Under the pieces are notes generated by a model. That model ran no database searches, was not told the DNA's origin, and saw nothing but the letters and a program-made list of their open reading frames with translations. A DNA stretch of 37,140 nucleotides from a virus: positions 1 through 37,140 of IMG/VR virus record IMGVR_UViG_3300046009_012809. One strand, 5' to 3'. Position 1 is the first letter of the stretch, and each line of letters starts with the position of its first letter. Shown here piece by piece: positions 5,413-33,602 of this stretch. The translations under genes were made by a program, and so were the position numbers.

Positions 5413-5413
5413 T

Positions 5414-5501
5414 CGGAACGAGTAGGATTCGAACCTACGGATGATATAGAACCATCGGAAGCTTAGTAGGCTTCTGCTTTAGACCTCTCAGCCATCGTTC
5501 C
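5414..5501 (-). tRNA. tRNA-Ser, anticodon ACU
   Basis: An 88-nt type II tRNA on the minus strand. The acceptor stem GGAACGA pairs with TCGTTCC, followed by discriminator G; CCA is not encoded. The D arm reads TGGCTGAGAGGTCTAAAGC, typical of serine tRNAs. The anticodon stem GAAGC/GCTTC closes a seven-base loop CTACTAA, giving U33 and anticodon ACU, which pairs with the AGU serine codon. A long variable arm (CGATGG...CCATC-type pairing) and T arm with GGTTCGAATCC follow. Bacterial AGY-reading serine tRNAs normally have GCU, so A34 is unusual. It sits 2 nt downstream of the reductase stop codon and could be processed from that transcript. Confidence 0.93.
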
Positions 5502-5503
5502 AA

Positions 5504-8758: not shown

Positions 8759-9751
8759 TTAGATTAATTCTTTATTACCAGAAAAAACTATTTCGATTGG
8801 TTGATCTAAGGCATGAAGTAGCTGGCTTTTTATAAAAGATTGCATAGCTTGTAGGGTATTAAATTTATAAAGATTATTATTCTGGAGAAGTTTATAGGTA
8901 TGTACCCTTTCAAGAATATCACACTTATTGATAATTAATTTAGTCACACCAGAAATTTTAATTGCATCAATTAATTTATTTAGATTTAACCAGTTCGCAA
9001 TTCTTCTACGACCAGTAGTTGATCCAAATTCTTGACCAGTTTCTATCAGCATATTCAACTCTGAGTCTTGCCAAAGACTTTCTGGAAATAGCGGATCTAC
9101 TCCACTTTTTGTATCGTAAATCTTTGCTACTCCAATGATATCTCTAATCTTTTTAGGTGAAAAGCCTAGAGAACAAGCGGAATAAGGTAGAGTTTCACTA
9201 CTTGTGACATATGGATAGTCGCCATAATTAATGTCTAACCAAAAACTTTGCGCGCCTTCACAGAGAATATTTCCGTAAAGTTCACCATCCCAAAGATAAT
9301 TTTTATCAATATAATCTCTTGCGAGTTTACCAATTCGTAACATTTTGTCTCCGTAAGCAGGAGCAATACCTTGACCAGTTGTTCCAAGTTTTTTCTTTAA
9401 TACGGCTAGATCATAATTTATATGTCTTTCTGTAATAATATGAGCTTTTGGACTTACTTTAATTAAAGATGTATCGAACCCTTCTTTTTGGAGATAGTCT
9501 ATCTCATCAAAAAATTTATCAACATTAATAACGCAATTAGGACCAATAACACTAAGTTTATTTTGGAATACTCCACATGGAATAATATGAGTTTTATATT
9601 TTTTATCTCCCAAATATACAGTATGTCCTGCATTTGGACCACCATTCCAGCGACAAACGATATCATAATTTTTGCTAATAGCATTACTTATTTTGCCTTT
9701 TCCTTCATCTCCCCAAGCTAATCCAAAGATAATATCTACTGAATTTATCAT
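8759..9751 (-). CDS. purA: Adenylosuccinate synthetase, short archaeal/phage type
   Basis: A 330-residue member of the PurA/PurZ family, which joins aspartate to IMP (PurA) or dGMP (PurZ) using GTP or ATP. Visible are the P-loop-like WGDEGKGK with Asp15, the catalytic His43 in GGPNAGHTV, the substrate loop GTTGQGIAPAYGDK, the arginine loop GSTTGRRR, and the guanine-specificity motif NKCD near residue 280. It is about 100 residues shorter than bacterial PurA and close to archaeal PurA and phage PurZ lengths. The general base Asp15 is retained, whereas known PurZ enzymes of Z-genome phages have Ser there, so I favour IMP as substrate. The NKxD motif favours GTP. It pairs functionally with the GMP-reductase-like gene at 12386. 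Confidence 0.87.
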   Translation of the reverse strand: MINSVDIIFGLAWGDEGKGKISNAISKNYDIVCRWNGGPNAGHTVYLGDKKYKTHIIPCGVFQNKLSVIGPNCVINVDKFFDEIDYLQKEGFDTSLIKVSPKAHIITERHINYDLAVLKKKLGTTGQGIAPAYGDKMLRIGKLARDYIDKNYLWDGELYGNILCEGAQSFWLDINYGDYPYVTSSETLPYSACSLGFSPKKIRDIIGVAKIYDTKSGVDPLFPESLWQDSELNMLIETGQEFGSTTGRRRIANWLNLNKLIDAIKISGVTKLIINKCDILERVHTYKLLQNNNLYKFNTLQAMQSFIKSQLLHALDQPIEIVFSGNKELI

Positions 9752-9786
9752 TATATTATTATAATCAAAATATAAAAGAAATACAA

Positions 9787-9792
9787 GTGTAA
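9787..9792 (+). promoter_or_regulatory. GTGTAA start-proximal element
   Basis: GTGTAA, 9 nt before the ATG at 9802, in the 50-nt divergent space between the adenylosuccinate synthetase and the membrane protein. Confidence 0.5.
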
Positions 9793-9801
9793 ATTACTTA
9801 T

Positions 9802-10779
9802 ATGTTTAAATATATATTAGGATTTTCAGCATTCGTATTAGCTTCGTGTGCAGCCTTCTTTTCTGTAAAAGGAATTGCTCTTCTTTTTGCTGCAAGCTTT
9901 TGGAGCGTAGCAGTAATGGCTGGTAGCCTTGAACTGGCTAAACTAATATCAGCTAGTTATCTCTATCGTTACTGGAAAGAAATAAATAGAATTCTTAAAA
10001 ACTATATGTTAGCGGCAACTATTCTGCTCATGGGTATTACTAGTCTTGGTATATTTGGTTTTCTTTCGGACGCATTTCAAAGAAATTTCTCGCAATATAG
10101 CTTAAACTTATCAAAGATTAATAGTCTAAAATCTCAACAGACTTTCATAACTTCTCAGATAGAATTTAATAAGAATAAATTAAAAGATTTAATAGAGCTT
10201 CAAAAGACATATCAATCATCTTTAGATAATGCAGTCAAACAAGATGTGACTACTACAAAAACTACAAGTGGTGGATTATTTAATAGTGGTAAAACTGAAA
10301 AAGTTACAGATATAAAATTAGTAGAAAGCAGAAATAAAATAGTAGAAGGGTCTCAGCAGAATATTAATAATCTATTCTCGCAAATATCTACTGTTACTAG
10401 TGACCTTCAAAATTTAGAGAAACAATCTTCTGAAAATGCTCAGACTATTATACAATTAGAAAGCGATAATACGAAGGGCGAGATAGGCACATTTAAATTT
10501 GTTGCAGAGGCTTTTGGTATGAATATAGAAACTGCTGTAAGAATATTTATTATATTAATAGTAATTGTATTTGATCCACTAGCAGTTTGCTTAGTAATAG
10601 CTTATAATTCTTTAAATAAAAAAGAATATAAAATAGAAACAAAAGAGATCGTTAAAGAACAGAAAATAGAAAAGATAGTAGAAAAACCTATAGAAAAATT
10701 AAAAATTATTTATAGAGACTTTAAAAGAGGAACAAAAGCTAGACACAATCCAGATTTCGCAGATCCTAATCTAAATTAG
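9802..10779 (+). CDS. Four-helix membrane protein with long coiled coil
   Basis: A 325-residue protein. Three hydrophobic helices occupy roughly residues 4-22, 24-45 and 68-90; a polar, heptad-rich coiled coil spans about 95-235 (KINSLKSQQTFITSQIEFNK onward, with many Gln, Asn and Ser); a fourth helix follows at 246-270 (IFIILIVIVFDPLAVCLVIAYN), and the C-terminus is a charged KIVEKPIEKLK-type tail. The phrase VFDPLAV is shared with large membrane/coiled-coil proteins in other phages, where function is unknown. The topology puts a rod between membrane segments, which could act in virion-associated membrane contact or host membrane remodelling. It has its own GTGTAA element. Confidence 0.65.
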   Translation: MFKYILGFSAFVLASCAAFFSVKGIALLFAASFWSVAVMAGSLELAKLISASYLYRYWKEINRILKNYMLAATILLMGITSLGIFGFLSDAFQRNFSQYSLNLSKINSLKSQQTFITSQIEFNKNKLKDLIELQKTYQSSLDNAVKQDVTTTKTTSGGLFNSGKTEKVTDIKLVESRNKIVEGSQQNINNLFSQISTVTSDLQNLEKQSSENAQTIIQLESDNTKGEIGTFKFVAEAFGMNIETAVRIFIILIVIVFDPLAVCLVIAYNSLNKKEYKIETKEIVKEQKIEKIVEKPIEKLKIIYRDFKRGTKARHNPDFADPNLN

Positions 10780-10784
10780 TGTAA
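10779..10784 (+). promoter_or_regulatory. GTGTAA start-proximal element
   Basis: GTGTAA, 9 nt before the ATG at 10794. The first base overlaps the stop codon of the preceding gene, showing that even closely packed genes carry their own copy. Confidence 0.5.
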
Positions 10785-10793
10785 TTTTTTCAT

Positions 10794-11957
10794 ATGTCAT
10801 CTTCATGCTCTTCAGAATATAATGTATGCTCGGCTTGCGCACCAAATTTAAGTTTATTTGCTATAAGTACCAGTGTTTCTCAGGCTAAATTTGGATATGC
10901 GTGTTTGGATGAAAGTGCTGGTGGCCCATTTCTTGCTACTTCTACTAGTTCTAATTTAAACAGCCAAGGTATAGAAACTCTTATCTGTGGCGCAAATAAT
11001 ACACTTTGCTCATACTCCTTCTCATCTCGTTTAAATTATGGAGTAGATAGTTATGGTCAAATATTTATAGGAACAAATAGTAGTTTACTTTACTCGTATA
11101 ATATTTATTCTAAAGATGGATGTGGTTCTTGTTCTCCACCAAGCCAATCTTCTAACACAGACTATTACTCTAGTCAAACTATCTCTAAAAGAAATGCTTG
11201 TGAAGAAGACAGAACAATATCTTCCGATTCATTTGGACCACCAAACCTTTGCATGGTTCCTTGTGATAGCGCAGGATGCTCTAATTCATATTCATGTGAA
11301 AAAGTAATCAATACAGAATCTGATAGTACTAATTTTAATGGCATATTTACACCTACTCCTCCATGTACTGATTGTAATGGCAATCCTATAACATGTCCAC
11401 CTCCATTTGGTTATTCTGTAACATCTAATTTATCTGCAAACATTATCAAATCCGTATCAAACATCTGTACCTTATCTCTCGTTTACAGCCTTTGTAAATC
11501 TTCAGCAGAAGTAAAAATGTCTCTTCTAGAATCTAATGGACCTCAAAATTGTCAAAATGGAAAATGTGGAGATGGAAAAAAAGATGATTGCTGGGGAATC
11601 ACTTCATCTTTCTCAATAACTGATAATAATCTCGATGATCCTAGCGCAAACTCTACCACATCTCAGAAACTAAAGTTTAAAATTGCTGCTCCCAAAGAAG
11701 GTTTCGATGAAAAATATAAGAGTATTTCTGGAAGGGTTATTTTTTATTATGGTGGAACTGAAGGAAAGACTCCTTGCTGTGATGATGATTTTGATGGTAC
11801 GATTGTAGAGGAAAAATCGTACTCTATCTCATCTGGGCCAACTTTTAAGGATGATTATTTTGCGGTAGATTGTGGCGACTTTGATAACGACAATCAAAGT
11901 CTAGTAGGCGAAACTATAAATATTTGTTATACTGTAGATAATATTTCTTTTATTTAA
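10794..11957 (+). CDS. Highly cysteine-rich protein, candidate virion component
   Basis: A 387-residue protein with about 25 cysteines by my count, clustered as C-x-x-C and C-x-(5-6)-C pairs: NVCSACAPN (11-19), DGCGSCSPP, LCMVPCDSAGCSNSYSCEKV, PPCTDCNGNPITCPPP, NCQNGKCGDGKKDDCWG and TPCCDDD. There is no signal peptide or membrane segment. Ser, Asn and Gly are abundant and the C-terminal third is strand-rich and acidic. The spacing could fit zinc sites or disulfides; disulfides in a protein lacking a signal peptide would fit an assembled virion surface after lysis. No family is recognised. It overlaps the convergent small gene at 11954 by 4 nt. Confidence 0.55.
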   Translation: MSSSCSSEYNVCSACAPNLSLFAISTSVSQAKFGYACLDESAGGPFLATSTSSNLNSQGIETLICGANNTLCSYSFSSRLNYGVDSYGQIFIGTNSSLLYSYNIYSKDGCGSCSPPSQSSNTDYYSSQTISKRNACEEDRTISSDSFGPPNLCMVPCDSAGCSNSYSCEKVINTESDSTNFNGIFTPTPPCTDCNGNPITCPPPFGYSVTSNLSANIIKSVSNICTLSLVYSLCKSSAEVKMSLLESNGPQNCQNGKCGDGKKDDCWGITSSFSITDNNLDDPSANSTTSQKLKFKIAAPKEGFDEKYKSISGRVIFYYGGTEGKTPCCDDDFDGTIVEEKSYSISSGPTFKDDYFAVDCGDFDNDNQSLVGETINICYTVDNISFI

Positions 11958-12145
11958 TATTTCTTAATCTTATAATTTTTATTAGATGGATCTATCTTAA
12001 GTATATGAGCTTTGGCTTTAGACAAGCCTTCTTTTGATGGAGGAAATACTCCATAAAGAAAATTATCATTTTTACTAAAAATAGCGTAGTACTTATGTTT
12101 TAGTTTCTTCTGATTCTGATTTTTTGTCTTGGTTTTCTTTTTCAT
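11954..12145 (-). CDS. Small basic protein, unknown
   Basis: A 63-residue, strongly basic protein: MKKKTKTKNQNQKKLKHKYYAIFSKNDNFLYGVFPPSKEGLSKA, ending KNYKIKKY. The N-terminal 16 residues are almost all Lys, Thr, Asn and Gln, while the rest looks like a small folded alpha/beta unit. Its first 53 nt overlap the end of the SEC-C gene in another frame, an unusually long overlap. No alternative Met start exists in the ORF, so the true start may use a non-ATG codon further in. It ends 4 nt inside the convergent Cys-rich gene. Confidence 0.45.
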   Translation of the reverse strand: MKKKTKTKNQNQKKLKHKYYAIFSKNDNFLYGVFPPSKEGLSKAKAHILKIDPSNKNYKIKKY

Positions 12146-12356
12146 TTACTAATTTCATTAGATGTTCTTTTAGAGCATCTCTAGCTTTATCGCAAAAATC
12201 TTGTCCCATTTGACCGCAGCAATTCTTAAACTTCTTGCCACTATAAGGACACATAGTGTTTCTTGAAATCTTTGGATATATTCTTACTATAGGACTAAAT
12301 TCTGTAGCCCTAGCATATTCTATTGAAGTTAATTTATCTACGTTTTCTTTGTCCAT
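12093..12356 (-). CDS. SEC-C zinc-binding motif protein
   Basis: An 87-residue protein with a SEC-C motif, SRNTMCPYSGKKFKNCCG (31-48), which binds one zinc through the Cys and Cys/Cys residues. The motif occurs at the C-terminus of SecA and in many small proteins as a protein-interaction or recruitment module. Here it is preceded by a basic strand region (EFSPIVRIYPKI) and followed by an acidic/lysine helical tail (EHLMKLVNEKENQDKKSESEE). A phage role is unknown; targeting host SecB, ribosome or chaperone contacts is speculation. CTATAA lies 6 nt before the ATG. Confidence 0.75.
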   Translation of the reverse strand: MDKENVDKLTSIEYARATEFSPIVRIYPKISRNTMCPYSGKKFKNCCGQMGQDFCDKARDALKEHLMKLVNEKENQDKKSESEETKT

Positions 12357-12385
12357 AATAGATTATAGGTTATTTATTAAGTAAA

Positions 12386-13498
12386 TCAAATTTTTCCGTG
12401 AGCAAAACCTTCATACATACTATTAGGGCTATTTCTAACAGCTTGAATTTTATTAAGCCAAAGGCCACCTCTCATATCTTTAAGATGTCTGAATCCTAGA
12501 TAGCTCATTGCACTTCTTAATCCGTTAGCAAAATCATAAACAACATCCTCTAAGGATTTATTTTCTATAATAGGAATCAAAGTATTATCGCCTTCTACAA
12601 AAAGATTCTTCTTTGTTCCATCGTACAATTCATAATCCTCAACGACATCCCTACTTGCCATTCCTCTATATTTTGCAAATCTTTTACCATCTTTCTCAAC
12701 TATATCTTGATCATCAATAACATCTGATAATCCAGCGAAGATTCTGCCACATATAACTGCATCACAACCACTAGCTATAGCTTTGACAAGATCCTTTGGA
12801 TATCTAATTCCTCCATCGGTTAGTATACTTGGTCTATTTGAGGGATCTGGTTCGTTTGAATTAAATAAATCTACTTGAGATAATTCCCAATTTCTAACCG
12901 CTTTCCAAGCATAGTAATTACCAGTAAGACTTGGGCATCCTATGCCAGTTTTTACTTGAGTTAAACACATTGAGCCTGGACCAATTAAATGTCTAAATCC
13001 GTCTGCTTTTAATGTAGCTAATCTATAAACACTTTGTTTTGTTAATGTATTACCAACGATGATGTCTTGTCTAAAACCTGCGGTTTTGTACCATCTCAAA
13101 AAGTCTTCTACATTTTTAGCGAGACCATTTGCTGTATCAAGAAAATAAATATCTGTATATGTGCTTGTGGCTCTAATTCTATTATCTGCATCTTTTAAAC
13201 CAATAGCTGTAATACAAAAACCACTTTCGTCCTTAATAATCTTTGATTTACTTGCTTGATCATCAATAGACATAAATCTATGTATTACTCCTGCCCCGCC
13301 TAATTTATTAATTTTAACGCAAGATTTTACAGAAGATACTGTATCCATTGGAGATAAAATGATAGGTATCTTTATCTCATGATTCTTGGAAATTTTAGTT
13401 TTTGTACTAACTTCTTTTCTGGAATTTATATCTGAAAAATTTGGTAGTAATGAGATATCATCGTAACTTAGGGCTTCTTTAAATTCTTGTTTTTGCAT
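12386..13498 (-). CDS. guaC: GMP reductase-like enzyme (IMPDH/GMPR family)
   Basis: A 370-residue TIM-barrel enzyme of the IMPDH/GMP reductase family. It begins LSYDDISLLPNFS (10-22) and carries DTANG (121-125), the catalytic loop GPGSMCLTQVKTGIGCP with Cys178, LTDGGIRYPKDLVKA (226-240), CGRIFAG and YRGMAS (277-282). CBS domains are absent. Two points favour GMP reductase (GMP + NADPH to IMP + NH3): DTANG resembles the DVANG of GuaC rather than the DSSQG type of IMPDH, and only about 22 residues separate GMAS from EGD with no Arg-Tyr flap dyad, whereas IMPDH has a longer mobile flap. The upstream start (13534) adds 12 residues and is less likely because family members begin near this Met. Confidence 0.8.
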   Translation of the reverse strand: MQKQEFKEALSYDDISLLPNFSDINSRKEVSTKTKISKNHEIKIPIILSPMDTVSSVKSCVKINKLGGAGVIHRFMSIDDQASKSKIIKDESGFCITAIGLKDADNRIRATSTYTDIYFLDTANGLAKNVEDFLRWYKTAGFRQDIIVGNTLTKQSVYRLATLKADGFRHLIGPGSMCLTQVKTGIGCPSLTGNYYAWKAVRNWELSQVDLFNSNEPDPSNRPSILTDGGIRYPKDLVKAIASGCDAVICGRIFAGLSDVIDDQDIVEKDGKRFAKYRGMASRDVVEDYELYDGTKKNLFVEGDNTLIPIIENKSLEDVVYDFANGLRSAMSYLGFRHLKDMRGGLWLNKIQAVRNSPNSMYEGFAHGKI

Positions 13499-13577
13499 AT
13501 AAGATATATTAAACGATTCTTTTGAAAGAATCAAGTAAAATGTTGACTGGAAAAATAAAAAGTAGTAATATATAACT

Positions 13578-13647: not shown

Positions 13648-14061
13648 ATGAGCAAAAGAATCTCATTTTTAGAAGCCGCACTAGAGACGGCAAAAATCTG
13701 GTCTACAAGATCAGAAGATCTCCATAAGAAGGTTGGTGCTTGCATTTTAAATAAGGAAGGTAGAGTTCTATCTGTTGGGTATAATGGTCTTACTCCAAAA
13801 TTAACTGTTGATGATAATTTTTGGGAGAATAGAGAGTATAGAAGAGACTATGTTGTGCATGCTGAAATTAATGCCTTAGCTCTTATCAGAAAACAAGATG
13901 AACCATATATTATAGCTACAACACTTTTACCATGCTCTAATTGCGCTACAAATATAGCTTGCTATGGAATTAAAACTGTGGTATATACTGAGGAGTATGA
14001 TAAAGATCAAAAAGCGAAAGATATATTCAAATTCTATAATATAGATCTATATAAAATATGA
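13648..14061 (+). CDS. dCMP/cytidine-type deaminase
   Basis: A 137-residue zinc-dependent deaminase. The core is HAE (His in VVHAEINALAL, with Glu as proton shuttle) and PCSNC (in LLPCSNCATNIACYGIK), the three zinc ligands being His, Cys and Cys. Residues LHKKVGACILNKEGRVLSVGYNG are the typical N-terminal sheet. Size and pattern match ComEB/dCMP deaminase, which makes dUMP for dTMP synthesis. The upstream extension in the same frame (13606) is rejected because it would overlap the 22-residue ORF and family members start at about MSKRISFLEAA. It is joined to the next gene by a 4-nt overlap. Confidence 0.88.
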   Translation: MSKRISFLEAALETAKIWSTRSEDLHKKVGACILNKEGRVLSVGYNGLTPKLTVDDNFWENREYRRDYVVHAEINALALIRKQDEPYIIATTLLPCSNCATNIACYGIKTVVYTEEYDKDQKAKDIFKFYNIDLYKI

Positions 14062-14531
14062 AACTATTACTAATATTAATATTTTGCTCAGTAACAGTAT
14101 ACTCACAGAATGGAAAAGTATTTGATACATATTATACTCGTGGTGACTCTACAAACGAATCTCATCAGACAATATTTCCTAAACCATTCCAATCATATAA
14201 TTATATTAAAACTCACAGAGGAATTGAAGTATATGAAACCTATAAGACTAAAAATTATTCAACGAATGAATCAAAGGGAACAATTTTCTCAAAACCTTTT
14301 CCAACTTATATAATAATTGATGACAAGATGTATTCTACATATAAAAACCAAAATGGCTCAACAAATGAATCTCATGGGACAATATTTACAAAACCATTTG
14401 AATCAAAACAAATATTTAATTTGACAGACAAATCAAAGAATAAAAATCAAATTAAAGTTACTTATGAGGTAAAATACAAAGAGCCACTACCAAAATATAA
14501 TGGTTCTGGAGATATAACATATGGAGAATAA
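14058..14531 (+). CDS. Exported protein with three STNES-TIF-KPF repeats
   Basis: A 157-residue protein with a clear signal peptide (MKLLLILIFCSVTVYS, cleavage probably before Gln17). The mature part has three copies of a motif STNES-x-x-TIF-x-KPF at residues 31-44, 68-81 and 101-114, each preceded by a tyrosine-rich stretch (YYTRGD, YKTKNY, YKNQNG), giving repeat units of 37 and 33 residues. A basic tail follows (KVTYEVKYKEPLPKY). The repeats are spaced like short beta hairpins, but no known domain is recognised. Export suggests a periplasmic or surface role, such as a lysis or superinfection function. The gene starts with an ATGA overlap and its end overlaps the kinase gene. Confidence 0.7.
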   Translation: MKLLLILIFCSVTVYSQNGKVFDTYYTRGDSTNESHQTIFPKPFQSYNYIKTHRGIEVYETYKTKNYSTNESKGTIFSKPFPTYIIIDDKMYSTYKNQNGSTNESHGTIFTKPFESKQIFNLTDKSKNKNQIKVTYEVKYKEPLPKYNGSGDITYGE

Positions 14532-15120
14532 TATGATAGGACTAACTGGCGTAGCAAGATCTGGAAAAGACACCTTCTTTTCTATCTTAAAAAGATATCT
14601 AAAAGAGAAGAATATAGAATCTCAAAGAATTGCTCTAGCTGATAATCTAAAATATGAATTAGGAGATTTCGTCAAAGATAAATTTAAAATAGATTTAGCG
14701 AAATGTGATGGATCAGATAAGGAATTAATTAGACCATTAATGGTATCTTATGGCAAATGCAGAAGAATTCAAACAGAAGGAAAATATTGGACATCTCTAG
14801 TAGAACCAAAGATAAAAGATCTAAATAAGTCTAACGTGCTTCCTATAATTACAGATATTAGATATATAGAATATAAAGAAGATGAATATACTTGGTTAAA
14901 AGCCCATAATGGAATCTTAATACATATATCAAGAAAACTAGACGATGGAACACTCGTACCTCCAGCAAATATAGAAGAAAAATCGAATGATAATAAATTA
15001 AAGGCTGTTGCAGATTACTCTGTGTCTTGGGAAACTTGTCAGGACGTTAATTTCTTATATGAATTGATGCAAAAGCATTTAAAAAATATATATGAAAAAT
15101 TTTTAGAAAATAAAAAATAA
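14521..15120 (+). CDS. Deoxynucleoside monophosphate kinase
   Basis: A 199-residue P-loop kinase resembling T4 gp1 dNMP kinase. The Walker A motif is GVARSGKDT (10-18). DLxYELGDFVKDKF and the arginine-rich lid (KCRRIQTEGKYW, LIHISRKLDD) fit nucleotide-kinase helices. It would phosphorylate dNMPs, such as those produced by host DNA breakdown and by the deaminase route, feeding dNDP/dNTP pools for phage replication. Two starts are possible: 14521 or the ATG at 14533, which has GGAG 7 nt upstream, one of the few good Shine-Dalgarno sequences here. I list the longer form. Confidence 0.8.
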   Translation: MENNMIGLTGVARSGKDTFFSILKRYLKEKNIESQRIALADNLKYELGDFVKDKFKIDLAKCDGSDKELIRPLMVSYGKCRRIQTEGKYWTSLVEPKIKDLNKSNVLPIITDIRYIEYKEDEYTWLKAHNGILIHISRKLDDGTLVPPANIEEKSNDNKLKAVADYSVSWETCQDVNFLYELMQKHLKNIYEKFLENKK

Positions 15121-17554: not shown

Positions 17555-19810
17555 ATGAGTATAAAAGTAAAAAAAAGAAGTGGTTCAACTGAAAATTTTA
17601 ATATAGAAAAAATTCATAGAGTAATCAACTGGGCAATTAAAGATTTGTCTAATGTAAGCTTAACCGACGTAGAGATTAACGCAAAGATTAGTATCAATGA
17701 TGGTGTTACTACTAAAGAGATTCATAAACTCTTAATTGAATCTGCAGCAAATTTGATATCAATAGAAAAACCTAATTATCAATATGTAGCCGGTAGACTT
17801 TTAAATTATCAATTGCGTAAGGATGTTTGGAAAGGTAAACATGCTCCCAGACTATTAGAATTTATTAATCAAGGACTAAAAAATAAAATATATGACCCTA
17901 TTATTCTAGAAAAATATGACGAAGATGAATTAAATAAGATGGGAGAATTTATAGATCATGAAAGAGACTATAATTTCACCTACGCTGGTATAAAACAATT
18001 ATGCGATAAGTATCTTATTAAAGATCGCGTCACAGGTAAAATATATGAAACTCCGCAATTCGCTTACATATTAATCTCTGCCTATGCTTTTATAAATTAT
18101 CCAAAAGAGAATAGATTAAGTTATGTTCGTAAGTTCTATGACGCAATCAGTAAACATAAAATAAATCTTCCAACTCCTGTAATGGCTGGAGTAAGAACTC
18201 CAAGTAAAAATTATGCAAGTTGCTGTTTAATTGGAGTAGATGATAGTAGGGATAGTATAACTGCTAGTGCTACAGCTGTAAGTATGGCTACTGCTAGTAG
18301 ATGTGGAATTGGAATTGATGTATCAAAGATTAGAGCTATCGGTTCTCCAATTAAGAATGGGGAAGTCGTTCATACTGGTTTGATCCCATTTCTTAAAATT
18401 TATGAAAGTAGTGTTAAGGCATGGCAACAAAATGGTCTTCGCGGAGGAAGCGCTACTTGCAATATTCAATGGTGGCATTATGAGATCGAAGACATTGTAG
18501 TGTTAAAAAATAATGCAGGTACAGATGATAATCGCGTCCGCAAATTAGATTATACAGTCGGTATGAGTAAACTATTCTATGATAGAGTATTAAAAGATGA
18601 AGATATTACTTTATTTAATACAGCTGAAGTTCCAGAACTATATGAAGCTTGGGGAACTAAAGACTTCGATAAGTTATATAAAGAATGCGAATCTAAAAAA
18701 CTAAAAATCAAGAAAAAAGTATCTGCTCGTAAGTTATTCTCTTTAATTATCAAAGAAAGAGTAGAAACTGGTAGAATTTATATTCTTAACGTAGATCACG
18801 CTAATAATCATGGAGCTTGGTTAGATAAAGTCACAATGAGTAATCTTTGTACTGAAGTTATCCACCCAACTACTCCATTAAATGACTATCACGACAAAAA
18901 TGGCGAAATTGGTATGTGCATTCTTTCGGCAGTGAATATGCTAGAAATTAAAAACTGGCAGGATCTTGAAAAGACTTGCGATCTTATCGTAAGATTTCTA
19001 GATGAAATCATTGAAATTCAAGATTACTTCAATATTGCTGCTGAAAATTTTGCAAAAAAACGTCGTAGTCTTGGAATTGGTATAACTAATTTGGCAGCCT
19101 ATCTTGCTAAAAATGAATTAAAATACACCTCAGATAAAACACTTCCAATTCTTGATGAATGGATGGAACATTTTCAATACTACCTTTTAAAGTCAAGTTT
19201 AGAGCTTGCTAAAGAAAAAGGTAAATGCGAAAAATTTGACAGGACAAAATACTCGAAAGGAATTCTACCTATTGATACTTACAAAGATAAAGTAGATGAA
19301 TTATGTAAAAGGAAATTATCTCTTGATTGGGAAAAATTAAGAAAAGAAATAAAAGAATTTGGATTAAGACATTCTACATTATCATCTTGTATGCCATGCG
19401 AAAGTAGTTCTGTAATTCAATCTTCAACTAATGGCGTAGAACCAATTCGTAGTTTAATTACTTATAAAATGAGCAAGATGGGTAAGTTACCAGTACTAGT
19501 TCCTGGAGTTGGAAAGTATGATGAGAATTATGAATTAGCGTATGATTTTAAAGATAACTCAGGTTTATTAAAAATTAACGCTATTATTCAAAAGTATATT
19601 GACATGGCGATATCAACTAATGTATACTATAATTATTCTCATTATGAAAATAATGTTCTTCCAGACGCAAAAGTAATGAAAGAAATTATGCAAGCATATT
19701 CTCTTGGTCTAATTAGTCTTTATTATAATAATACTGACGATGGCGATAAGGAGCAGTTAATGAATCAAAAAGAAGATCGCGATTGTTCTTCTGGAGCGTG
19801 TAAATTATAA
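17555..19810 (+). CDS. nrdA: Class Ia ribonucleotide reductase, large subunit
   Basis: A 751-residue protein, nearly the length of E. coli NrdA (761). It reduces NDPs to dNDPs with the radical-bearing small subunit. An ATP-cone domain occupies about residues 1-95 (KVKKRSGSTENFNIEKIHRVI...NYQYVAGRL). Active-site cysteines are Cys223 (in NYASCCLIG) and Cys455 (MCILSAVNM), with the thiyl cysteine Cys432 in NLCTEVIHP beside Asn430 and Glu434. The tyrosine pair YY is at 723-724 (SLYYNNTDDG) and the tail ends CSSGACKL, with the redox-shuttle cysteines, as in CESGACKI of E. coli. The start TAATATTATACTCATAGTGTT region upstream holds no clear Shine-Dalgarno. The small subunit follows after 3 nt. Confidence 0.96.
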   Translation: MSIKVKKRSGSTENFNIEKIHRVINWAIKDLSNVSLTDVEINAKISINDGVTTKEIHKLLIESAANLISIEKPNYQYVAGRLLNYQLRKDVWKGKHAPRLLEFINQGLKNKIYDPIILEKYDEDELNKMGEFIDHERDYNFTYAGIKQLCDKYLIKDRVTGKIYETPQFAYILISAYAFINYPKENRLSYVRKFYDAISKHKINLPTPVMAGVRTPSKNYASCCLIGVDDSRDSITASATAVSMATASRCGIGIDVSKIRAIGSPIKNGEVVHTGLIPFLKIYESSVKAWQQNGLRGGSATCNIQWWHYEIEDIVVLKNNAGTDDNRVRKLDYTVGMSKLFYDRVLKDEDITLFNTAEVPELYEAWGTKDFDKLYKECESKKLKIKKKVSARKLFSLIIKERVETGRIYILNVDHANNHGAWLDKVTMSNLCTEVIHPTTPLNDYHDKNGEIGMCILSAVNMLEIKNWQDLEKTCDLIVRFLDEIIEIQDYFNIAAENFAKKRRSLGIGITNLAAYLAKNELKYTSDKTLPILDEWMEHFQYYLLKSSLELAKEKGKCEKFDRTKYSKGILPIDTYKDKVDELCKRKLSLDWEKLRKEIKEFGLRHSTLSSCMPCESSSVIQSSTNGVEPIRSLITYKMSKMGKLPVLVPGVGKYDENYELAYDFKDNSGLLKINAIIQKYIDMAISTNVYYNYSHYENNVLPDAKVMKEIMQAYSLGLISLYYNNTDDGDKEQLMNQKEDRDCSSGACKL

Positions 19811-19813
19811 CCT

Positions 19814-20878
19814 ATGAAAAGTGTTTTAAATCTTAAAAATATAGATTATACAAAGCAACCATTATTCTTTGGCGAAGATCTTAATCTTCAAAGATATGAT
19901 CGTTTTAAATATCCTATCTTTTTTGAGTTATTTAAAAAACAAGAAGAATTCTTTTGGTGGCCTCATGAGATTGCTTTAAATAAAGATCGTAGCGATTATA
20001 AAGAATTGGCTGGTCAAGAAAGATTTGTTTTTGACACTAATTTAAAATTTCAAACTCTTGGGGATAGTATGCTCTCAAGAAGTATCCATTCATTAAAAGA
20101 TTACGTAAGTAATCCAGAACTTGAAATATGCATGAATACTTGGCAAAGATTCGAAGGAATACATAGTTATTCTTATTCATATTTACTCAATAATGTTCAT
20201 CCAGACGCTAGTAAATTCTTTGATAGCATTATGGAAGATAAAGAAATTGTATCCCGTGCCGAATTAATAAGAAATAATTTTGATAAAATACTTGGAGATG
20301 ATGATAAGAAAGATCTAAAACAGAAAATCTTTGATTGTATTCTTTCTGTTAATGTTATGGAAGGACTTGTGTTCTATGTATCATTTGCCTGTTCATTTTA
20401 TTTTGGATATCGTGGAAAAATGGAAGGTAATGCTAAAATTATTAAGTTTATTCAAAGAGATGAAGCTTTACATTTTGCTACAACCCAAAATCTACTTAAA
20501 ATTCTTAAAGAGGAAGATAAAGAAGGTTTTACTTCTATCGTAAAGAAAAGTGAAGATAAAGTATATGCGTTTTATGAACAAGCTGCTAAAAATGAAATCG
20601 AGTGGGCTGAGTATCTATTTAGCAAAGGGTCTCTACTAGGATTAAACGCTGAAGTTCTAGGTGGTTACTCTAAATGGCTTTGCGATGCTCGTTTGCGATC
20701 ATTAGGATATAAGAAAATTTTTAATCAAAAAGATAATCCTATTGCTGGTTGGTTGGATAGCTATCTTGATAGTAGCAAGGTCCAAGTTGCTCCACAAGAA
20801 ACAGAAATTTCAACGTATAAAATTGGTGCAAGAAAAACTGATATATCTGATGACGATTTTGGCGATATGAAGCTATAA
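19814..20878 (+). CDS. nrdB: Class Ia ribonucleotide reductase, small subunit
   Basis: A 354-residue R2 protein. The diiron ligands are all present: Asp84, Glu114, His117, Glu183, Glu217 and His220 (motifs LGDSML, FEGIHSYSY, VMEGL, RDEALHF). The radical tyrosine Tyr121 in HSYSY is retained, so a Fe2-Tyr class Ia enzyme is predicted. The C-terminus (DDDFGDMKL) is the acidic tail that docks into NrdA. It starts 3 nt after NrdA. GTGTAA also occurs 10 nt before this ATG, inside the last codons of nrdA, but there it is part of Cys-Lys-Leu codons and may be coincidence. Confidence 0.96.
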   Translation: MKSVLNLKNIDYTKQPLFFGEDLNLQRYDRFKYPIFFELFKKQEEFFWWPHEIALNKDRSDYKELAGQERFVFDTNLKFQTLGDSMLSRSIHSLKDYVSNPELEICMNTWQRFEGIHSYSYSYLLNNVHPDASKFFDSIMEDKEIVSRAELIRNNFDKILGDDDKKDLKQKIFDCILSVNVMEGLVFYVSFACSFYFGYRGKMEGNAKIIKFIQRDEALHFATTQNLLKILKEEDKEGFTSIVKKSEDKVYAFYEQAAKNEIEWAEYLFSKGSLLGLNAEVLGGYSKWLCDARLRSLGYKKIFNQKDNPIAGWLDSYLDSSKVQVAPQETEISTYKIGARKTDISDDDFGDMKL

Positions 20879-22640: not shown

Positions 22641-23028
22641 GGGCCAGATTTGGTTTCGATTTTAGGAATCGGAATTAGAATGCAAGTAGAGGTTTAGGTG
22701 GGTCTCTTTAAAAAGCCTTAAAAGTATTAACTGCCAAAACAGCTAAATACAAAGGTCATATCTCTGCTAGAGTTTCTCTAGTTGAGGAGACCGTTTCTGT
22801 AGCTTAAGTTCTACAGCGTGATTACCATGACACATCTAATGGATAGTTGCGTATTTAGATGTCTTCTCTTATAAAGTTTTTTTATTCTTTATAAGTTTAG
22901 TATTCAAAATAGAATCGCCGAGTATGTTTGTTCTTTATCTATACAAAGCTAAACACAAAAAGAACTAAACTTGTAGTATTTTAATTTAAATTCACTAAAA
23001 GACGGGGATTCGATTTCCCCCTGGTCCA
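22641..23028 (+). ncRNA. ssrA: tmRNA (transfer-messenger RNA)
   Basis: A 388-nt tmRNA. Its 5' end GGGCCAG pairs with CTGGTCC at 23021-23027 to form the 7-bp acceptor stem (one G-U), with discriminator A; CCA is not encoded. The T arm is GGGGATTCGATTTCCCC (23004-23020), and the 5' part GATTTGGTTTCGAT matches the D-arm-like region of known tmRNAs. The resume codon is GCC at 22733, preceded by TTAACT, and the tag reads 24 residues, AKTAKYKGHISARV ... VEETVSVA, ending at TAA (22805). Later helices include CTTATAAAG/CTTTATAAG. The tag is long compared with E. coli (11 residues). It rescues stalled ribosomes together with host SmpB. Phage tmRNAs are known in some mycobacteriophages and large phages. 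Confidence 0.93.
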
Positions 23029-23094
23029 AGTAAACGAATCTACTCGTCTCCATATTTATTAGAAATTTAATCACAAACAAAATATCATCTTAAT

Positions 23095-25080: not shown

Positions 25081-26046
25081 TTGAACATACTCTGGCCCGA
25101 CATTCATAAAAATCTCACTAAAAATATAGCAAAAGCACTAGAAAAGCTTGGCCACACTCTAATTTTACCAAGTAGCGAATATATTCCCACTAATTTTCCA
25201 CCAAAGCAATTTAATCAATGGATTTGGAATACTTCTTGGACCCAAGAAAAAGTAAACAATGAATTTACTTCAAAAAATATTAGAGTATTAAATAAAGAAC
25301 AAATTCTCGATCTTAAACCAGAAGTAATATTTATAACAAGTTTTGAGAGTCAGTTCGAAATTCTTAATGAGGTTTGGCCACATCTTAAAGATAAAAGTAA
25401 ACTAGCTTGTTATAGCGGAAATGATTATTGGGATGGTGCTTATCCTTTTTATATAATTAAAAATTATCTATGCGCGGATTATGTTGGTTACTATCTTGCA
25501 AATAAATATAAAGTAAATCATTTATACTACAAACCTTGGGTTGATTATGATAGATGCACTTTTGATGGCCCAACTGATGGAAATATAGTTGGTATTTATA
25601 TTTCAGAATATGAAAAGAACTTTAATCAAGAATATAATATGAGCCGAGAGTTGCAAAAATTAACTCCATATATAGATTATCACTACCATACAAATAGCTC
25701 TCAAGAAGAATTAACAAAAACACTAAAATCAAGTATTGCTACTCAACATATTAAACATCTTGAAGGTTATGGAATAGCTATTATTGAAAGTATGGCTTGC
25801 GGTAAACCAGTATTTATGCATCGCCTAATGGCTCAAAATAAAAGTCTTATGCAATGGAGTATAGAGAACGTAACAGCTTTATTTTTTGAAAGCGAATATG
25901 AATATATTGCTAAATTAAAAGCTTTACATGAAAGTAAAGATTATAGATATTTTCTACAAAATACAACCGCTAATGTAATTCGTCAAATTATAGATAATCA
26001 AAGAGAAACAGAAAAGCTTGGACATTTTCTTAATAATCTAGTATAA
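25081..26046 (+). CDS. GT-B glycosyltransferase, first gene of glycan island
   Basis: A 321-residue glycosyltransferase with a TTG start: (M)NILWPDIHKNLTKNIAKALEKLGHT. The donor-binding motif EGYGIAIIESMACGKPVF, residues ~222-239, has the two glutamates of GT4-like enzymes. No ATG lies in frame near the start, and residues NILWPDIH are a sensible first strand, so TTG is accepted. TATAAATA, the T4 late-promoter core, lies at 25053-25060, 20 nt before the start, but AT-rich sequence makes this weak. Substrates are unknown. The following genes continue the same pathway. Confidence 0.8.
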   Translation: MNILWPDIHKNLTKNIAKALEKLGHTLILPSSEYIPTNFPPKQFNQWIWNTSWTQEKVNNEFTSKNIRVLNKEQILDLKPEVIFITSFESQFEILNEVWPHLKDKSKLACYSGNDYWDGAYPFYIIKNYLCADYVGYYLANKYKVNHLYYKPWVDYDRCTFDGPTDGNIVGIYISEYEKNFNQEYNMSRELQKLTPYIDYHYHTNSSQEELTKTLKSSIATQHIKHLEGYGIAIIESMACGKPVFMHRLMAQNKSLMQWSIENVTALFFESEYEYIAKLKALHESKDYRYFLQNTTANVIRQIIDNQRETEKLGHFLNNLV

Positions 26047-26053
26047 TTTCATA

Positions 26054-26887
26054 ATGAAAATTTGGCTCTGTGGCATTACTCAAAACGAGAAGCAAAATAT
26101 AGATGACATGACGAAAGATATCTATCAATATTTTGATGGACTAATTTTCGTAGACGGCGGCTCAACAGATGGTACATTAGATATATTAAATGCAAGAAAA
26201 GGGCAAGGAAAGATTATAAATAGAGAATGGTCAAATGACCATGACCTTCAAATGAATGGCTTTTTAAGATCAAATATAATGCAAAATAGAGATTGGTTTA
26301 TTATTCGCGATAGTTGCGAAAGGTTAGATATAGACTGGGCAAAGAACTTGCGTAATTTTATAGAAAATTTCTTAGAAAAGAATAACGTAAATAGTTGTGT
26401 TGATAGACAAAAAGCTTTTCTTGTTAAATATTTTGACGATATGATATTTCAAGGAAGTCCTCATTGGGGGCTTCAAGGTATGAGGCCAGGATATCTTGAT
26501 CTTTATGAGTATTATGGAAAAAATCAAAAAATGTTTGCATGGGAAGAAAGACCATCTCAAAGAAAGCATTATATTGACAGTGATATGAAATATTATTTTA
26601 CTTATGGAAGATCAAATCATTGCGTTCTTCATTATTATGATAATGGAAAAACTCCAGAAAGATACCAACAGCAAGAAAGTATAAGACAAGCATTTAGATC
26701 TTTTTGCGAAAATTTAGGAATAAAATTTAATTTACAATCATTAAAAGATTATTGGCAAAAAAATATAATTGATGAAAAAATGAAATTTTTCATTAATAAT
26801 GAAAGATTAATAAAAAGATTTTATAGATTAAATATACTCAATGAAAGTATAGAATCTATAGATAAAAACGAACAATGGAGAATATAA
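26054..26887 (+). CDS. GT2-like glycosyltransferase
   Basis: A 277-residue GT-A enzyme: MKIWLCGITQNEKQNIDDM is the nucleotide-binding strand, and FVDGGSTDGTLDILNA (33-48) is the signature of inverting GT2 enzymes that read a metal-bound UDP- or GDP-sugar. RDSCERL stands where a DxD motif is expected. The sequence then has an unusual, basic, aromatic second half (WEERPSQRKHYIDSDMKYYF, HCVLHYYDNGKTPERYQQQE) that probably binds the acceptor. It starts 8 nt after the previous gene and ends 4 nt before the methyltransferase. Confidence 0.75.
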   Translation: MKIWLCGITQNEKQNIDDMTKDIYQYFDGLIFVDGGSTDGTLDILNARKGQGKIINREWSNDHDLQMNGFLRSNIMQNRDWFIIRDSCERLDIDWAKNLRNFIENFLEKNNVNSCVDRQKAFLVKYFDDMIFQGSPHWGLQGMRPGYLDLYEYYGKNQKMFAWEERPSQRKHYIDSDMKYYFTYGRSNHCVLHYYDNGKTPERYQQQESIRQAFRSFCENLGIKFNLQSLKDYWQKNIIDEKMKFFINNERLIKRFYRLNILNESIESIDKNEQWRI

Positions 26888-26890
26888 AAA

Positions 26891-27451
26891 ATGCAACACT
26901 TTTATGAAAATATACATGGATGGTTTGACTATCCAGATCTATACAAATATTATATTAATAACGCGAAAGATGATTCTAAATCAATAGAGATTGGAGTCTA
27001 CAAAGGCAGAAGCACAGCTTTCATGGGAGTAGAAATTATTAATAGTAATAAAAGATTAACTCATTACGCTTTAGACCATTTTTATGGTAATAATGAACAT
27101 AGAGAAGAAGGTAATTCAGCCTATACTCCAGAAGCAATTGATGGAACATTATATAATCTTTTTTTAAAAAATATAGAACCAGTAAAAGATGTTATTGTTC
27201 CGATAAACAAAGACTCAAGAGAAGCATACAAAGATTTTGAAAATGATTTTTTCGACTTAATATTCATAGATGGACATCATGGGTATGAAGAATGTCTGAC
27301 TGATATGAAATTATGGTATCCAAAATTAAAGAAAAATGGAATTTTTGCTGGTCATGATTTATGGGCAGAATCCGTTCAAAGAGCGGTTAATGAATTCTTG
27401 AATCGAGATTTTACAAGTTTCTCTGGGTGCTGGTTTCATATTAAAAAATAA
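26891..27451 (+). CDS. Class I SAM methyltransferase of the glycan island
   Basis: A 186-residue Methyltransf_24-type enzyme. The SAM loop is SIEIGVYKGRSTAFMGVEI, then ALDHFYG; the fourth-strand motif is LIFIDGHHGYEECLTDMKLWYPKLKKNGIFAGHDL, positions 131-165, and GC-W at the end. It resembles the phage methyltransferase at 6568-7215 (LWYPKLKKNGI versus AWYPKLKKNGI), so the two may be paralogues. Set among glycosyltransferases, it could methylate a sugar hydroxyl, a cap often used to stop chain extension. The next gene starts immediately after its stop. Confidence 0.85.
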   Translation: MQHFYENIHGWFDYPDLYKYYINNAKDDSKSIEIGVYKGRSTAFMGVEIINSNKRLTHYALDHFYGNNEHREEGNSAYTPEAIDGTLYNLFLKNIEPVKDVIVPINKDSREAYKDFENDFFDLIFIDGHHGYEECLTDMKLWYPKLKKNGIFAGHDLWAESVQRAVNEFLNRDFTSFSGCWFHIKK

Positions 27452-28351
27452 ATGAAAATAGTAGATTCTTTCATGTTCTTTAATGAAAGAGATTTAGTAC
27501 ATCTAAGAATTAAAGAGCTTTACGATGTAGTAGATTATTTTATTATTAATGAACTATCTACGACTCATAAAGGAATAGCTAAAGAATCCATTTTTTGGAA
27601 TGATAAGAGATTAGAATGTTTCAAGGATAAGATAAAATATAGATTTATAGACGTAGATCATAGGTACGATCAATTATTTAATATCAACTTTAAAGACTCC
27701 TCACATTTCATAGGCAGTTGGGCGGAGCATGAACAAAGACTCAGGTTAATGGATGAAATAAATGAATTAAATTTATCTGACGAAGATATTGTGCTTTTTT
27801 CAGATTGTGATGAAATTCCAAATAAAAATAAATTTAGTGAATTACAAAATTATGATTTTGTAGCGTTAAATCAAATGTTTTTCGTTCATTATATTAATCT
27901 TTATACAAATAAAAATGTAACTGGAACAATAGCAGTTAAGTATGGAAAAATTAAAGAAATAAATAAAAATAACCATAATTTAGGACTTCAAATTTTGAGA
28001 AGACATAAAGATTATATTCCAAGATTAGAAGATGGTGGATGGCATTATTCTTATATGGGTGGGCCTAAAACTATGAGCGAAAAAGTTATTTCTATTTATG
28101 AAGGTAATCCAGATTCACCATTAAAAGATGAAAATAAATGCAAAGAGTTTATTGATCAAACAATTAAAGATAATAAAAGCCCATTCTCTGATATGCCTCT
28201 TAGAGTATTAGATTTAAATGCTAGAAATTTATTCTTAACTTTTATAACTGCAAACTCTGGACAATGGGTAAAAGATGCATCGTACTGTCAAGTATTTCCA
28301 GAAATTGTAAATAAAATAGAATTCAATAATTTAATATTAGAAAATAAATAG
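27452..28351 (+). CDS. GT17-family glycosyltransferase
   Basis: A 299-residue member of GT17 (beta-1,4-mannosyl-glycoprotein N-acetylglucosaminyltransferase-like). The family start MKIVDSFMFFNERDLVHLRI (1-20), the DxD-like FSDCDEIP (113-120 region) and the conserved GWHYSYMGG are present, with a long helical middle containing EHEQRLRLMDEINE. Eukaryotic members add GlcNAc to mannose, and bacterial/phage members act in surface glycan assembly. The likely donor is UDP-GlcNAc or a related sugar, by family only. It follows the methyltransferase with no gap. Confidence 0.82.
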   Translation: MKIVDSFMFFNERDLVHLRIKELYDVVDYFIINELSTTHKGIAKESIFWNDKRLECFKDKIKYRFIDVDHRYDQLFNINFKDSSHFIGSWAEHEQRLRLMDEINELNLSDEDIVLFSDCDEIPNKNKFSELQNYDFVALNQMFFVHYINLYTNKNVTGTIAVKYGKIKEINKNNHNLGLQILRRHKDYIPRLEDGGWHYSYMGGPKTMSEKVISIYEGNPDSPLKDENKCKEFIDQTIKDNKSPFSDMPLRVLDLNARNLFLTFITANSGQWVKDASYCQVFPEIVNKIEFNNLILENK

Positions 28352-28356
28352 TTTTT

Positions 28357-29121
28357 ATGAAAATAAATTTTATAATACAAACATGGGGAGAAGACTTAGA
28401 AAGAGTTCAAAATTTTAAATTTTGTTTAAATCGTCTAAAGGTACTATCTGATTTTTTAAAAATACATGGCATAGAAACTAAAATATATCCATTTTGTTTT
28501 GGTACTATAAAAATTACAGAAGATAGTTTTCATTCAGATCTATCAGCGTTAACATATCATAAATCATTTAAAACAAACTATGCAATAAAACAAATGATTA
28601 AAGATAATAATATCGCAGATGTTTTATGTTATATAGATGCTGATATTTTTGTCCTAGAACAAGATTTTATAAATTTATTAAGCTATCTAAAACAAACTAA
28701 CTTCAAACAAAAGTATCTTACAAGCCGTTGGTTAGACACAGATTCAAGAGATTATTTTGATTTTGAAAATGATGTTATAAAAGAAAATATAAAAATAAGT
28801 AAAATGAGAGGAAGTGATGCTAGTGGTTTATTTATTGTGGATTTTGATATTCTATTAAAAATTGGTGGTTTTGATGAAAGATATACAGTTTGGGGAGCAG
28901 AAGATGATGATATGTGCAGGAGACTAGAAAGATATGGTTTACAAAAAGAATACATGAATTTTTATCCTATACATATAAAACATAAAAGATTAGATACTGA
29001 AAATAAAGACAGTCCAGTTAATAATCATGAAAAAATTTATTACCTTTATCAAGTTAAGATTTGTCAAGAGGATCAATCAATCGTTAGGCCAACAATTTTG
29101 AATAATTATTACATTGAATAA
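28357..29121 (+). CDS. GT-A glycosyltransferase with galactosyltransferase-type C-terminus
   Basis: A 254-residue protein: MKINFIIQTWGEDLERVQNF is the first strand; YIDADIFV is the DxD metal/nucleotide site (residues ~92-99); GGFDERYTVWGAEDDDMCRRLERYG is the WGxEDxD motif seen in Glyco_transf_7C and chondroitin-type enzymes, followed by HIKHKR, a late His/Lys patch. A retaining or inverting mechanism cannot be read from this. It overlaps the next gene by 8 nt. Confidence 0.8.
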   Translation: MKINFIIQTWGEDLERVQNFKFCLNRLKVLSDFLKIHGIETKIYPFCFGTIKITEDSFHSDLSALTYHKSFKTNYAIKQMIKDNNIADVLCYIDADIFVLEQDFINLLSYLKQTNFKQKYLTSRWLDTDSRDYFDFENDVIKENIKISKMRGSDASGLFIVDFDILLKIGGFDERYTVWGAEDDDMCRRLERYGLQKEYMNFYPIHIKHKRLDTENKDSPVNNHEKIYYLYQVKICQEDQSIVRPTILNNYYIE

Positions 29122-29965
29122 TATAAGAATAAAGTTTAACTGCAACTGGACAAATGATAAAGCTATTTATGATAGAGTTATATCAAATTATATTGGATAT
29201 GAGACACCAGAAGTTACATATAAAGATGACTATACGCACCTAGTAATCTTCAATAAAAAAACATGTGATCAAAAATGCGCTAAAGAAAATACATTTAGTT
29301 TTATCATGGAGCCAAGTTGGTCTCAAAATTGGGATAGAAATTTAACTGATTATTGTAATAAAGTATATTTTCATGATTTATCTCTAATAGAAAATCAAGT
29401 AAGTAACCTAGATAGATACATAGAACATCCAAGTTATATGATGTATCACATGCTGTACTCAGATAGTATTAATTATTTTTTGAACCAAAGATTTATAAAA
29501 AAATATAATTTAAGTTTTGTTGTAAGTTTTTCTCCAAATAATGAAAGCTACCTATATGGGTTAAGAACAAAATTAGCTCTAGATCTTTTAAAAACAAATT
29601 TAGACTTTCATATTTATGGAAATAATTGGCCAATTTTAGATCAAAGAATAAAAGGGGCAGTTTTGAATAAAAAAGACGCTTTGATTGATTACAAATACTC
29701 AATTGCTATAGAAAATAGCAGAGAAAAGAATTACATTACTGAAAAATTTATTGACTGCTTTCTCTGTAATACAACTCCAATATATTATGGTTGTCCAAAC
29801 ATCAAAGATGTATACCCACAAGATTCATTTATAGAATTACCAGATCTAAATGTTAATTCAATATTCAATATTATAGCAAAGCAAGAATATAATTTAGATA
29901 TACTAAAAAATATATATTTTAAAAAATTCAATATATTCAATACAATAAAAGAGCAAATCATATGA
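29114..29965 (+). CDS. GT10 fucosyltransferase-like protein, TTG start
   Basis: A 283-residue protein with the C-terminal signature of alpha-1,3-fucosyltransferases (GT10): YKYSIAIENSREKNYITEKFIDCF followed by TTPIYYGCPNIKDVYP, positions ~193-232. The donor for this family is GDP-fucose, and the island also encodes GDP-mannose 4,6-dehydratase, the enzyme that makes the precursor GDP-4-keto-6-deoxymannose. The only plausible start is TTG at 29114, which overlaps the end of the previous gene (TTGAATAA). The next ATG in frame is far inside the protein. It overlaps the following gene by 4 nt. Confidence 0.78.
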   Translation: MNNIRIKFNCNWTNDKAIYDRVISNYIGYETPEVTYKDDYTHLVIFNKKTCDQKCAKENTFSFIMEPSWSQNWDRNLTDYCNKVYFHDLSLIENQVSNLDRYIEHPSYMMYHMLYSDSINYFLNQRFIKKYNLSFVVSFSPNNESYLYGLRTKLALDLLKTNLDFHIYGNNWPILDQRIKGAVLNKKDALIDYKYSIAIENSREKNYITEKFIDCFLCNTTPIYYGCPNIKDVYPQDSFIELPDLNVNSIFNIIAKQEYNLDILKNIYFKKFNIFNTIKEQII

Positions 29966-30693
29966 AATATTCTATAGGTATAGTATCCTTTAACAAGAGA
30001 TTTGAAAGCTATTTTAAACCTTTAATTAAATTTATTAAAGATAATTCTGATCTAGAAGTAGTAGTTTGCATAAATGGATCTCTTAGAGAGGAATTTGACG
30101 AGGTTTATAGAAAAGAACTCCTAGGTTTCTTGTCTCAATATGATAAAGTATATCCAATGATATTTACATCTTTTAGATCGTTAAGCAAATTATGGAATAA
30201 TTTAATTATCAATTCTACAAATGATAATATTTTAATACTAAATGATGATGTTAAAATACTTAATGGTAAATTTTTTGAAGATGTAGAAAAGAATATTAAT
30301 AATGATTTATTTACAATAAATGGTAGTTGGTCGCACTTTGTGGCAAATAAAAATCAAATGATTGAATTAGGTTTTTTTGATGAAAGATTGTTGGGTGTTG
30401 GAGAAGAAGATGGAGATATGGTATTTCGATATATAAATAAATATGGACAACGACCAAAAGATATTATTTCAGAGAATTTATATAATATATCTTCAAATGA
30501 AAATCAAGACAATATGAAGAAAGGCATTGGTAAATATTCTTTATTTAATAGATTATTTATGTTTAATTATAAATATTTGATGAATCCCAGCGGTATAAAA
30601 GGTATGTTTGATTATCCAGTAACACAAAATATTCAAGACACTAATTTGTATCCATACGAAAAATTCTACCTAGATAATATACATAACTTATGA
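29962..30693 (+). CDS. GT-A glycosyltransferase
   Basis: A 243-residue GT-A fold enzyme: KYSIGIVSFNKRFESYFKPL, then VVVCINGSLRE; the metal site is ILNDDVKI (92-99), and GFFDERLLGVGEEDGDMVFRY is the acceptor-side acidic motif analogous to GGFDER..GxEDxD in the preceding enzymes. The second half (MKKGIGKYSLFNRLFMFNYKYL) is basic and aromatic. Donor and acceptor unknown. It overlaps both neighbours by 4 nt, which indicates tight co-translation of the island. Confidence 0.75.
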   Translation: MKYSIGIVSFNKRFESYFKPLIKFIKDNSDLEVVVCINGSLREEFDEVYRKELLGFLSQYDKVYPMIFTSFRSLSKLWNNLIINSTNDNILILNDDVKILNGKFFEDVEKNINNDLFTINGSWSHFVANKNQMIELGFFDERLLGVGEEDGDMVFRYINKYGQRPKDIISENLYNISSNENQDNMKKGIGKYSLFNRLFMFNYKYLMNPSGIKGMFDYPVTQNIQDTNLYPYEKFYLDNIHNL

Positions 30694-31466: not shown

Positions 31467-31468
31467 TA

Positions 31469-32984: not shown

Positions 32985-32985
32985 A

Positions 32986-33585: not shown

Positions 33586-33602
33586 ATTAATAGTATTATA
33601 TA

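Follow-up and report, generated by a model that had tools for sequence, protein, structure and literature searches.

A PurA-type adenylosuccinate synthetase and a GMP-reductase-like enzyme as a probable guanylate-to-adenylate module in a T4-like water phage

Two genes of a T4-like water phage, one for a short PurA and one for a GMP reductase (GMPR)-like enzyme, probably form a module that converts guanylate to adenylate, judging from their sequences. Phages remake pyrimidine pools with dCMP deaminase and thymidylate synthase, and they make 2-aminoadenine through PurZ. In the open-licence literature we found neither these two enzymes as a phage pair nor a phage purine arm running from guanylate to adenylate, and the Far-T4 paper mentions neither enzyme. 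We observed the genes themselves, their active-site residues, a conserved neighbourhood, and, in other phages, the repeated pairing of a canonical GMP reductase with PurA of this subfamily. From these we infer the reactions, the use of ribo- over deoxynucleotides, and a benefit to the phage. The GMPR-like enzyme would reduce GMP to IMP with release of ammonia, the phage PurA would combine IMP and aspartate into adenylosuccinate, and host PurB would release AMP from it by cleavage. Host kinases and the phage NrdAB would then take the AMP on to dATP. A C-to-T counterpart would come from dCMP deaminase and ThyX, the latter located elsewhere in related genomes. The gain would be extra adenylate for phage DNA or for ATP during infection. 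The window, meaning the whole stretch of DNA analysed here, is a 37,140-base IMG/VR virus record with 29.6% GC. Its relevant features are as follows.

8759..9751, minus strand: predicted short adenylosuccinate synthetase, PurA type, 330 aa, first enzyme from IMP to AMP (PF00709, 1.6e-79)
12093..12356, minus strand: small CPYSGKKFKNCCG (SEC-C-like zinc) protein, position kept between GMPR and PurA
12386..13498, minus strand: putative GMP-reductase-like enzyme, IMPDH/GMPR family, 370 aa (PF00478, 1.9e-61)
13648..14061, plus strand: dCMP deaminase (dCMP to dUMP), pyrimidine arm (PF00383, 9.9e-16; PHROG_174, 6e-35; HAE/PCxxC)
14521..15120, plus strand: deoxynucleoside monophosphate (dNMP) kinase, weak (PHROG_139, 7.8e-17; Pfam below cut-off)
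17555..19810, plus strand: NrdA, class Ia ribonucleotide reductase alpha (NF006578, 913.6 bits, cut-off 813)
19814..20878, plus strand: NrdB, class Ia ribonucleotide reductase beta (NF006576, 348.9 bits, cut-off 346)

The source virus is a T4-like water phage. The window ends on the right in a UvsX/RecA-like gene and also encodes NrdAB, a weak sigma-factor match, and a tmRNA. Its NrdA was nearest to those of Pelagibacter phages and T4-like cyanophages (50–54%), and its UvsX reached only ~25% identity to anything in a 50,697-record phage collection. The phage-encoded tmRNA (22641–23029, plus strand) matched Rfam RF00023 over its full length at 104 bits, with the predicted tag AKTAKYKGHISARVSLVEETVSVA. 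A single tRNA-Ser (5413–5502, minus strand) had the unusual anticodon ACT, with A at the wobble position. About 11 kb of the plus strand (25081–35808) held glycosyltransferases, methyltransferases, a GDP-mannose dehydratase, and epimerases, making up a sugar-nucleotide and glycan cluster within a T4-like phage.

An earlier sequence-only reading of this DNA had called a synthetase and a GMP-reductase-like enzyme, together with a dCMP deaminase at 13648, NrdAB, and a dNMP kinase. All were recovered, the kinase weakly, and Pfam placed the first two as a synthetase and an enzyme of the IMPDH/GMPR fold. The PurA-like ORF runs on the minus strand from an ATG at 9751 to 8759. The GMPR-like ORF was listed with a TTG start at 13534, while the ATG at 13498 gives a 370 aa protein beginning MQKQEF that agrees with the start in the family. 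Values of dN/dS against relatives were ~0.01–0.16 for both genes, indicating purifying selection on each.

PurA-type synthetase. By its residues and tree position, the protein predicted at 8759–9751 is a PurA-type adenylosuccinate synthetase. It contained PF00709 and retained the WGDEGKGK motif with Asp15 (the equivalent of the catalytic E. coli Asp13), NAGH(T), and TTGRxR. It scored 261.8 bits against the NCBIfam PurA equivalog, below the cut-off of 402, but it lacks a segment at profile positions ~154–209 and the C-terminal part, and full-length models therefore under-score it. Short forms are also known among PurA and PurZ. No record in the 50,697-record phage collection had >40% identity to the subfamily. 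The predicted structure was mediocre (pLDDT 60.9, from a shallow alignment). One related contig (L031) carried two PurA copies, at 464–1459 and 11697–12704, ~10 kb apart on opposite strands.

The PHROG_1211 label for this protein is '2-aminooxy adenylosuccinate synthetase'. PurZ has Ser in place of the catalytic Asp in all 147 phage sequences examined (PMC12884076), whereas every aligned member of the window's PurA subfamily had Asp at this position. The PurZ model NF038379 gave 97.7 bits against a cut-off of 300, and the tree separated the window's PurA family from PurZ with support of 100/99. On the kept Asp and the tree position we rejected a PurZ identity and place the protein with PurA, contrary to its label. 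Such a label would mislead automatic annotation, and a phage PurA should not default to PurZ.

The ribose-side loop differed from that of E. coli. The window PurA has K215-S216 where E. coli has R272-V273, so that T-R-V-G in E. coli corresponds to T-K-S-G in the two larger pair-carrying phage groups and to T-R-S-G in a third. Replacement of V273 by Ser was invariant across all pair-bearing groups, and replacement of R272 by Lys was found in the two larger ones. The PurA Arg that contacts O2' (E. coli R303) is displaced in PurZ (PMC8342488) but was retained in the phage PurA of the pair carriers. The retained Arg would favour ribonucleotides, and the Ser at V273 leaves room for an altered ribose specificity.

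GMPR-like enzyme. The protein at 12386–13498 most likely has the activity of a GMP reductase, although it belongs to neither GMPR1 nor GMPR2. This reading follows from the kept Cys/Thr/Glu set, the lack of CBS domains, and the lack of an Arg-Tyr flap. Cys178, Thr180, Glu302, and Asp228 (of the DGG motif) were invariant in the family alignment, and the first three correspond to E. coli Cys186, Thr188, and Glu289, the residues by which a GMP reductase is recognised. In E. coli GMPR, mutation of this Cys, Thr, or Glu impairs activity in vivo, and hydrolysis by IMPDH needs the Arg-Tyr flap, loss of whose Arg costs ~1000-fold (PMC2525682). The flap was absent in every GMPR-like member examined and present in all four IMPDH references compared. 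A conserved insertion that follows the catalytic loop was also specific to the family.

Profile scores were low throughout. Curated GMPR models gave 110.8–131 bits against cut-offs of 344–492, and the TIGR01302 IMPDH equivalog gave 169 bits against 481.5, so that raw scores were slightly nearer IMPDH than GMPR (169 vs 131 bits). The family is divergent and reached none of the NCBIfam cut-offs for IMPDH or GMPR, so its assignment as GMPR is one that we infer. In the phylogeny the family sat on its own long branch outside the characterised GMPR clades, and its place is not fixed because of the long branches. No bacterial relatives were found in the scanned genome contigs, and a cellular source may still exist because such scans reach close relatives only. 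The predicted structure was too poor to use (pLDDT 43.7, from a shallow alignment). With the Arg-Tyr flap missing, we rejected IMPDH as the most likely identity.

Conserved neighbourhood. Among related loci drawn from viral contigs, we compared 74 non-redundant ones that carry the GMPR-like gene. A dCMP deaminase lay within 4 kb of it in 74/74. PurA occurred in 68 of these loci, 59 of which had it on the strand of the GMPR-like gene; deaminase, GMPR, and PurA all shared one strand in 45 of the 74. The recurrent order was deaminase, GMPR, SEC-C-like protein, PurA. The window cluster has the same genes, interrupted by two plus-strand genes and with the deaminase on the opposite strand. The SEC-C-like zinc mini-protein (12093–12356), for which no Pfam match was found, occurred in most related loci and on the strand of GMPR wherever found, and the dNMP kinase was conserved near the deaminase. 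Both enzymes were encoded in 40/40 tested clade contigs of at least 21 kb, a co-occurrence that reflects retention rather than independent events because the clade contigs share ancestry. PurA was found in 46/49 GMPR contigs, the exceptions being two ~11 kb fragments and one 64 kb contig; such absences are weak because the contigs are fragments.

Two further points raised in the sequence-only reading concerned genes outside this cluster, namely a host PurB for the last step and a possible thymidylate synthase elsewhere in the genome, and the relatives agree with both. PurB (PF00206) had no match in 29 relatives or in 18 further ones, and host PurB would thus be needed. No thymidylate synthase was identified within the 37,140-base window; ThyX was present in 25/29 large related contigs, and no ThyA scored over the cut-off in those 29. 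In one 118 kb record (L035, ~45729–47330), the ThyX frame was 563 aa with its domain in two pieces ~1 kb apart, pointing to an insertion in frame, perhaps an intein.

Pairing with other reductases. Searching from a more distant PurA reached a second set of phages that has hardly any other genes in common with the window. A PF00478 gene was present in 21/34 contigs of this set, and some PurA carriers had none on contigs of up to 87 kb. In 23 loci the PF00478 gene lay upstream and shared the strand of PurA, and in five more it lay upstream on the opposite strand. In the main group, this enzyme was only ~24% identical to the window's GMPR-like enzyme and was a canonical GMP reductase (NF003470, 511–516 bits, cut-off 397) that clustered with E. 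coli GuaC in the tree. A third small group (L289, L290, L296) combined the same PurA subfamily with another flap-less enzyme lineage. PurA was absent from seven named or assembled phages of other lineages that bear a GMPR or IMPDH gene.

The reductase that accompanies the PurA subfamily thus varies between phages. The repeated pairing of the same PurA with different reductases points to a linked function from GMP through IMP to adenylosuccinate and suggests that the pairing itself is under selection. It is better evidence than conservation within one clade, and it supports the GMPR reading of the window enzyme. Both the pairing and the direction of flow proposed in the sequence-only reading are therefore favoured by the residues and by independent pairing. 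Because the module has been assembled repeatedly from different reductases, phages may gain from controlling the G:A ratio. A fuller version, in which a PurA subfamily with a kept Asp and a KSG/RSG loop joined separately with three GMPR-like enzymes as a recurrent G-to-A module, in the window's clade beside enzymes for C-to-T conversion, and perhaps tuned to deoxynucleotides (host-DNA dGMP to dAMP), is possible but doubtful.

In the second group (L245–L288, cluster 3, e.g. L262:2729–3115), GuaC and PurA were accompanied by a small protein with MHSELDA and PCxxCxxWC motifs. Its only match was the PHROG dCMP deaminase at E = 0.006, and profile comparison gave a probability of 1.5%, with no confident family match; it tentatively looks like an undescribed protein of the cytidine-deaminase fold, and these two values make any deaminase label tentative.

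Base composition. The sequence-only reading had explained the enzymes as shifting host pools toward A and T to match AT-rich phage DNA. The window-clade loci had 25–34% GC (median 29%), and for this clade the explanation is plausible. It does not hold generally, since the GuaC-type pair loci had 34–49% GC (median 38%): the pair is not confined to AT-rich phages, and the rationale fails for carriers at 45–49%.

Several results weigh against the proposed module: the scores of the GMPR-like family below every curated cut-off and slightly nearer IMPDH, its long branch in the tree, the invariant Ser for V273 near the ribose in PurA, the PurA carriers without a PF00478 gene, and, for the AT-rich rationale, the carriers at 45–49% GC. 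The Ser bears on a deoxy route, in which dGMP from host DNA would pass through dIMP to dAMP by way of a deoxy-tolerant PurA and NrdAB would be bypassed. We consider this route rather unlikely. The loop substitutions of PurA and the adjoining deoxynucleotide enzymes (dCMP deaminase and dNMP kinase) fit it, but the O2'-contacting Arg is retained, unlike in PurZ, and so is the Asp of the DGG motif in the GMPR-like enzyme, a residue that holds the ribose hydroxyls in IMPDH and GMPR. The low scores bear on the other enzyme, which might be a CBS-less IMPDH for GMP synthesis whose nearness to PurA is a mere purine-gene neighbourhood. Raw scores that were higher with IMPDH than with GMPR models, a weak position close to IMPDH in the tree (86/61), and the persistence of some IMPDH activity without Arg418 via a Thr/Glu route (PMC2525682) would allow this; we judge it distinctly unlikely given that no member examined has the flap, that an unambiguous GMP reductase adjoins the same PurA in other phages, and that IMPDH and PurA would draw IMP in opposite ways.

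Occurrence of the pair in phages that are not AT-rich could also mean that its purpose is not to supply A but to drain GTP-related pools, for example so as to blunt (p)ppGpp or guanine-based signalling. No linked signalling gene was seen, and the co-conserved genes are a DNA-precursor set (deaminase, dNMP kinase, NrdAB, ThyX), making this very unlikely. Least probable of all is a role of the pair in supplying the precursor for an unusual DNA base, comparable to that of PurZ in 2-aminoadenine synthesis. The PHROG name hints at such a role, but it is at odds with the kept catalytic Asp, the PurZ model score far under its cut-off, and the tree position apart from PurZ. Guanylate-to-adenylate conversion is the reading that we prefer.

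The proposed module has the reaction order and catalytic residues of cellular guanine-to-adenine salvage by GuaC/GMPR1 with PurA and PurB, and the GuaC of the second phage group is near-canonical. It differs in being phage-encoded, in its shortened PurA with a KSG loop, in the lack of PurB, and, in the window, in a GMPR-like enzyme from a separate, divergent family marked by an insertion. One survey reported viral purA as enriched at low salinity (PMC13288924). The PurZ/PurZ0 systems of 2-aminoadenine phages (phiVC8, S-2L, Gordonia, Arthrobacter) likewise have a short phage PurA homologue and a phage-encoded purine branch dependent on host PurB. Here the residue is Asp rather than Ser, the clade is separate, and the partner is a GMPR-like enzyme, whereas PurZ is partnered by DatZ/MazZ/DutZ. 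CBS-less PF00478 enzymes are also found in Bacillus phage G (gp120), Caulobacter Cr30, Xanthomonas XacN1, Thermus phiYS40, and Microcystis Mel-JY01; these had 26–31% identity to the window's enzyme and no Arg-Tyr flap where checked, but PurA was in none of the genomes tested. The dCMP deaminase and ThyX of the window's clade would do the same job as the dCMP deaminase–thymidylate synthase route of T4, with the difference that here a purine arm is added and the synthase is ThyX, not ThyA.
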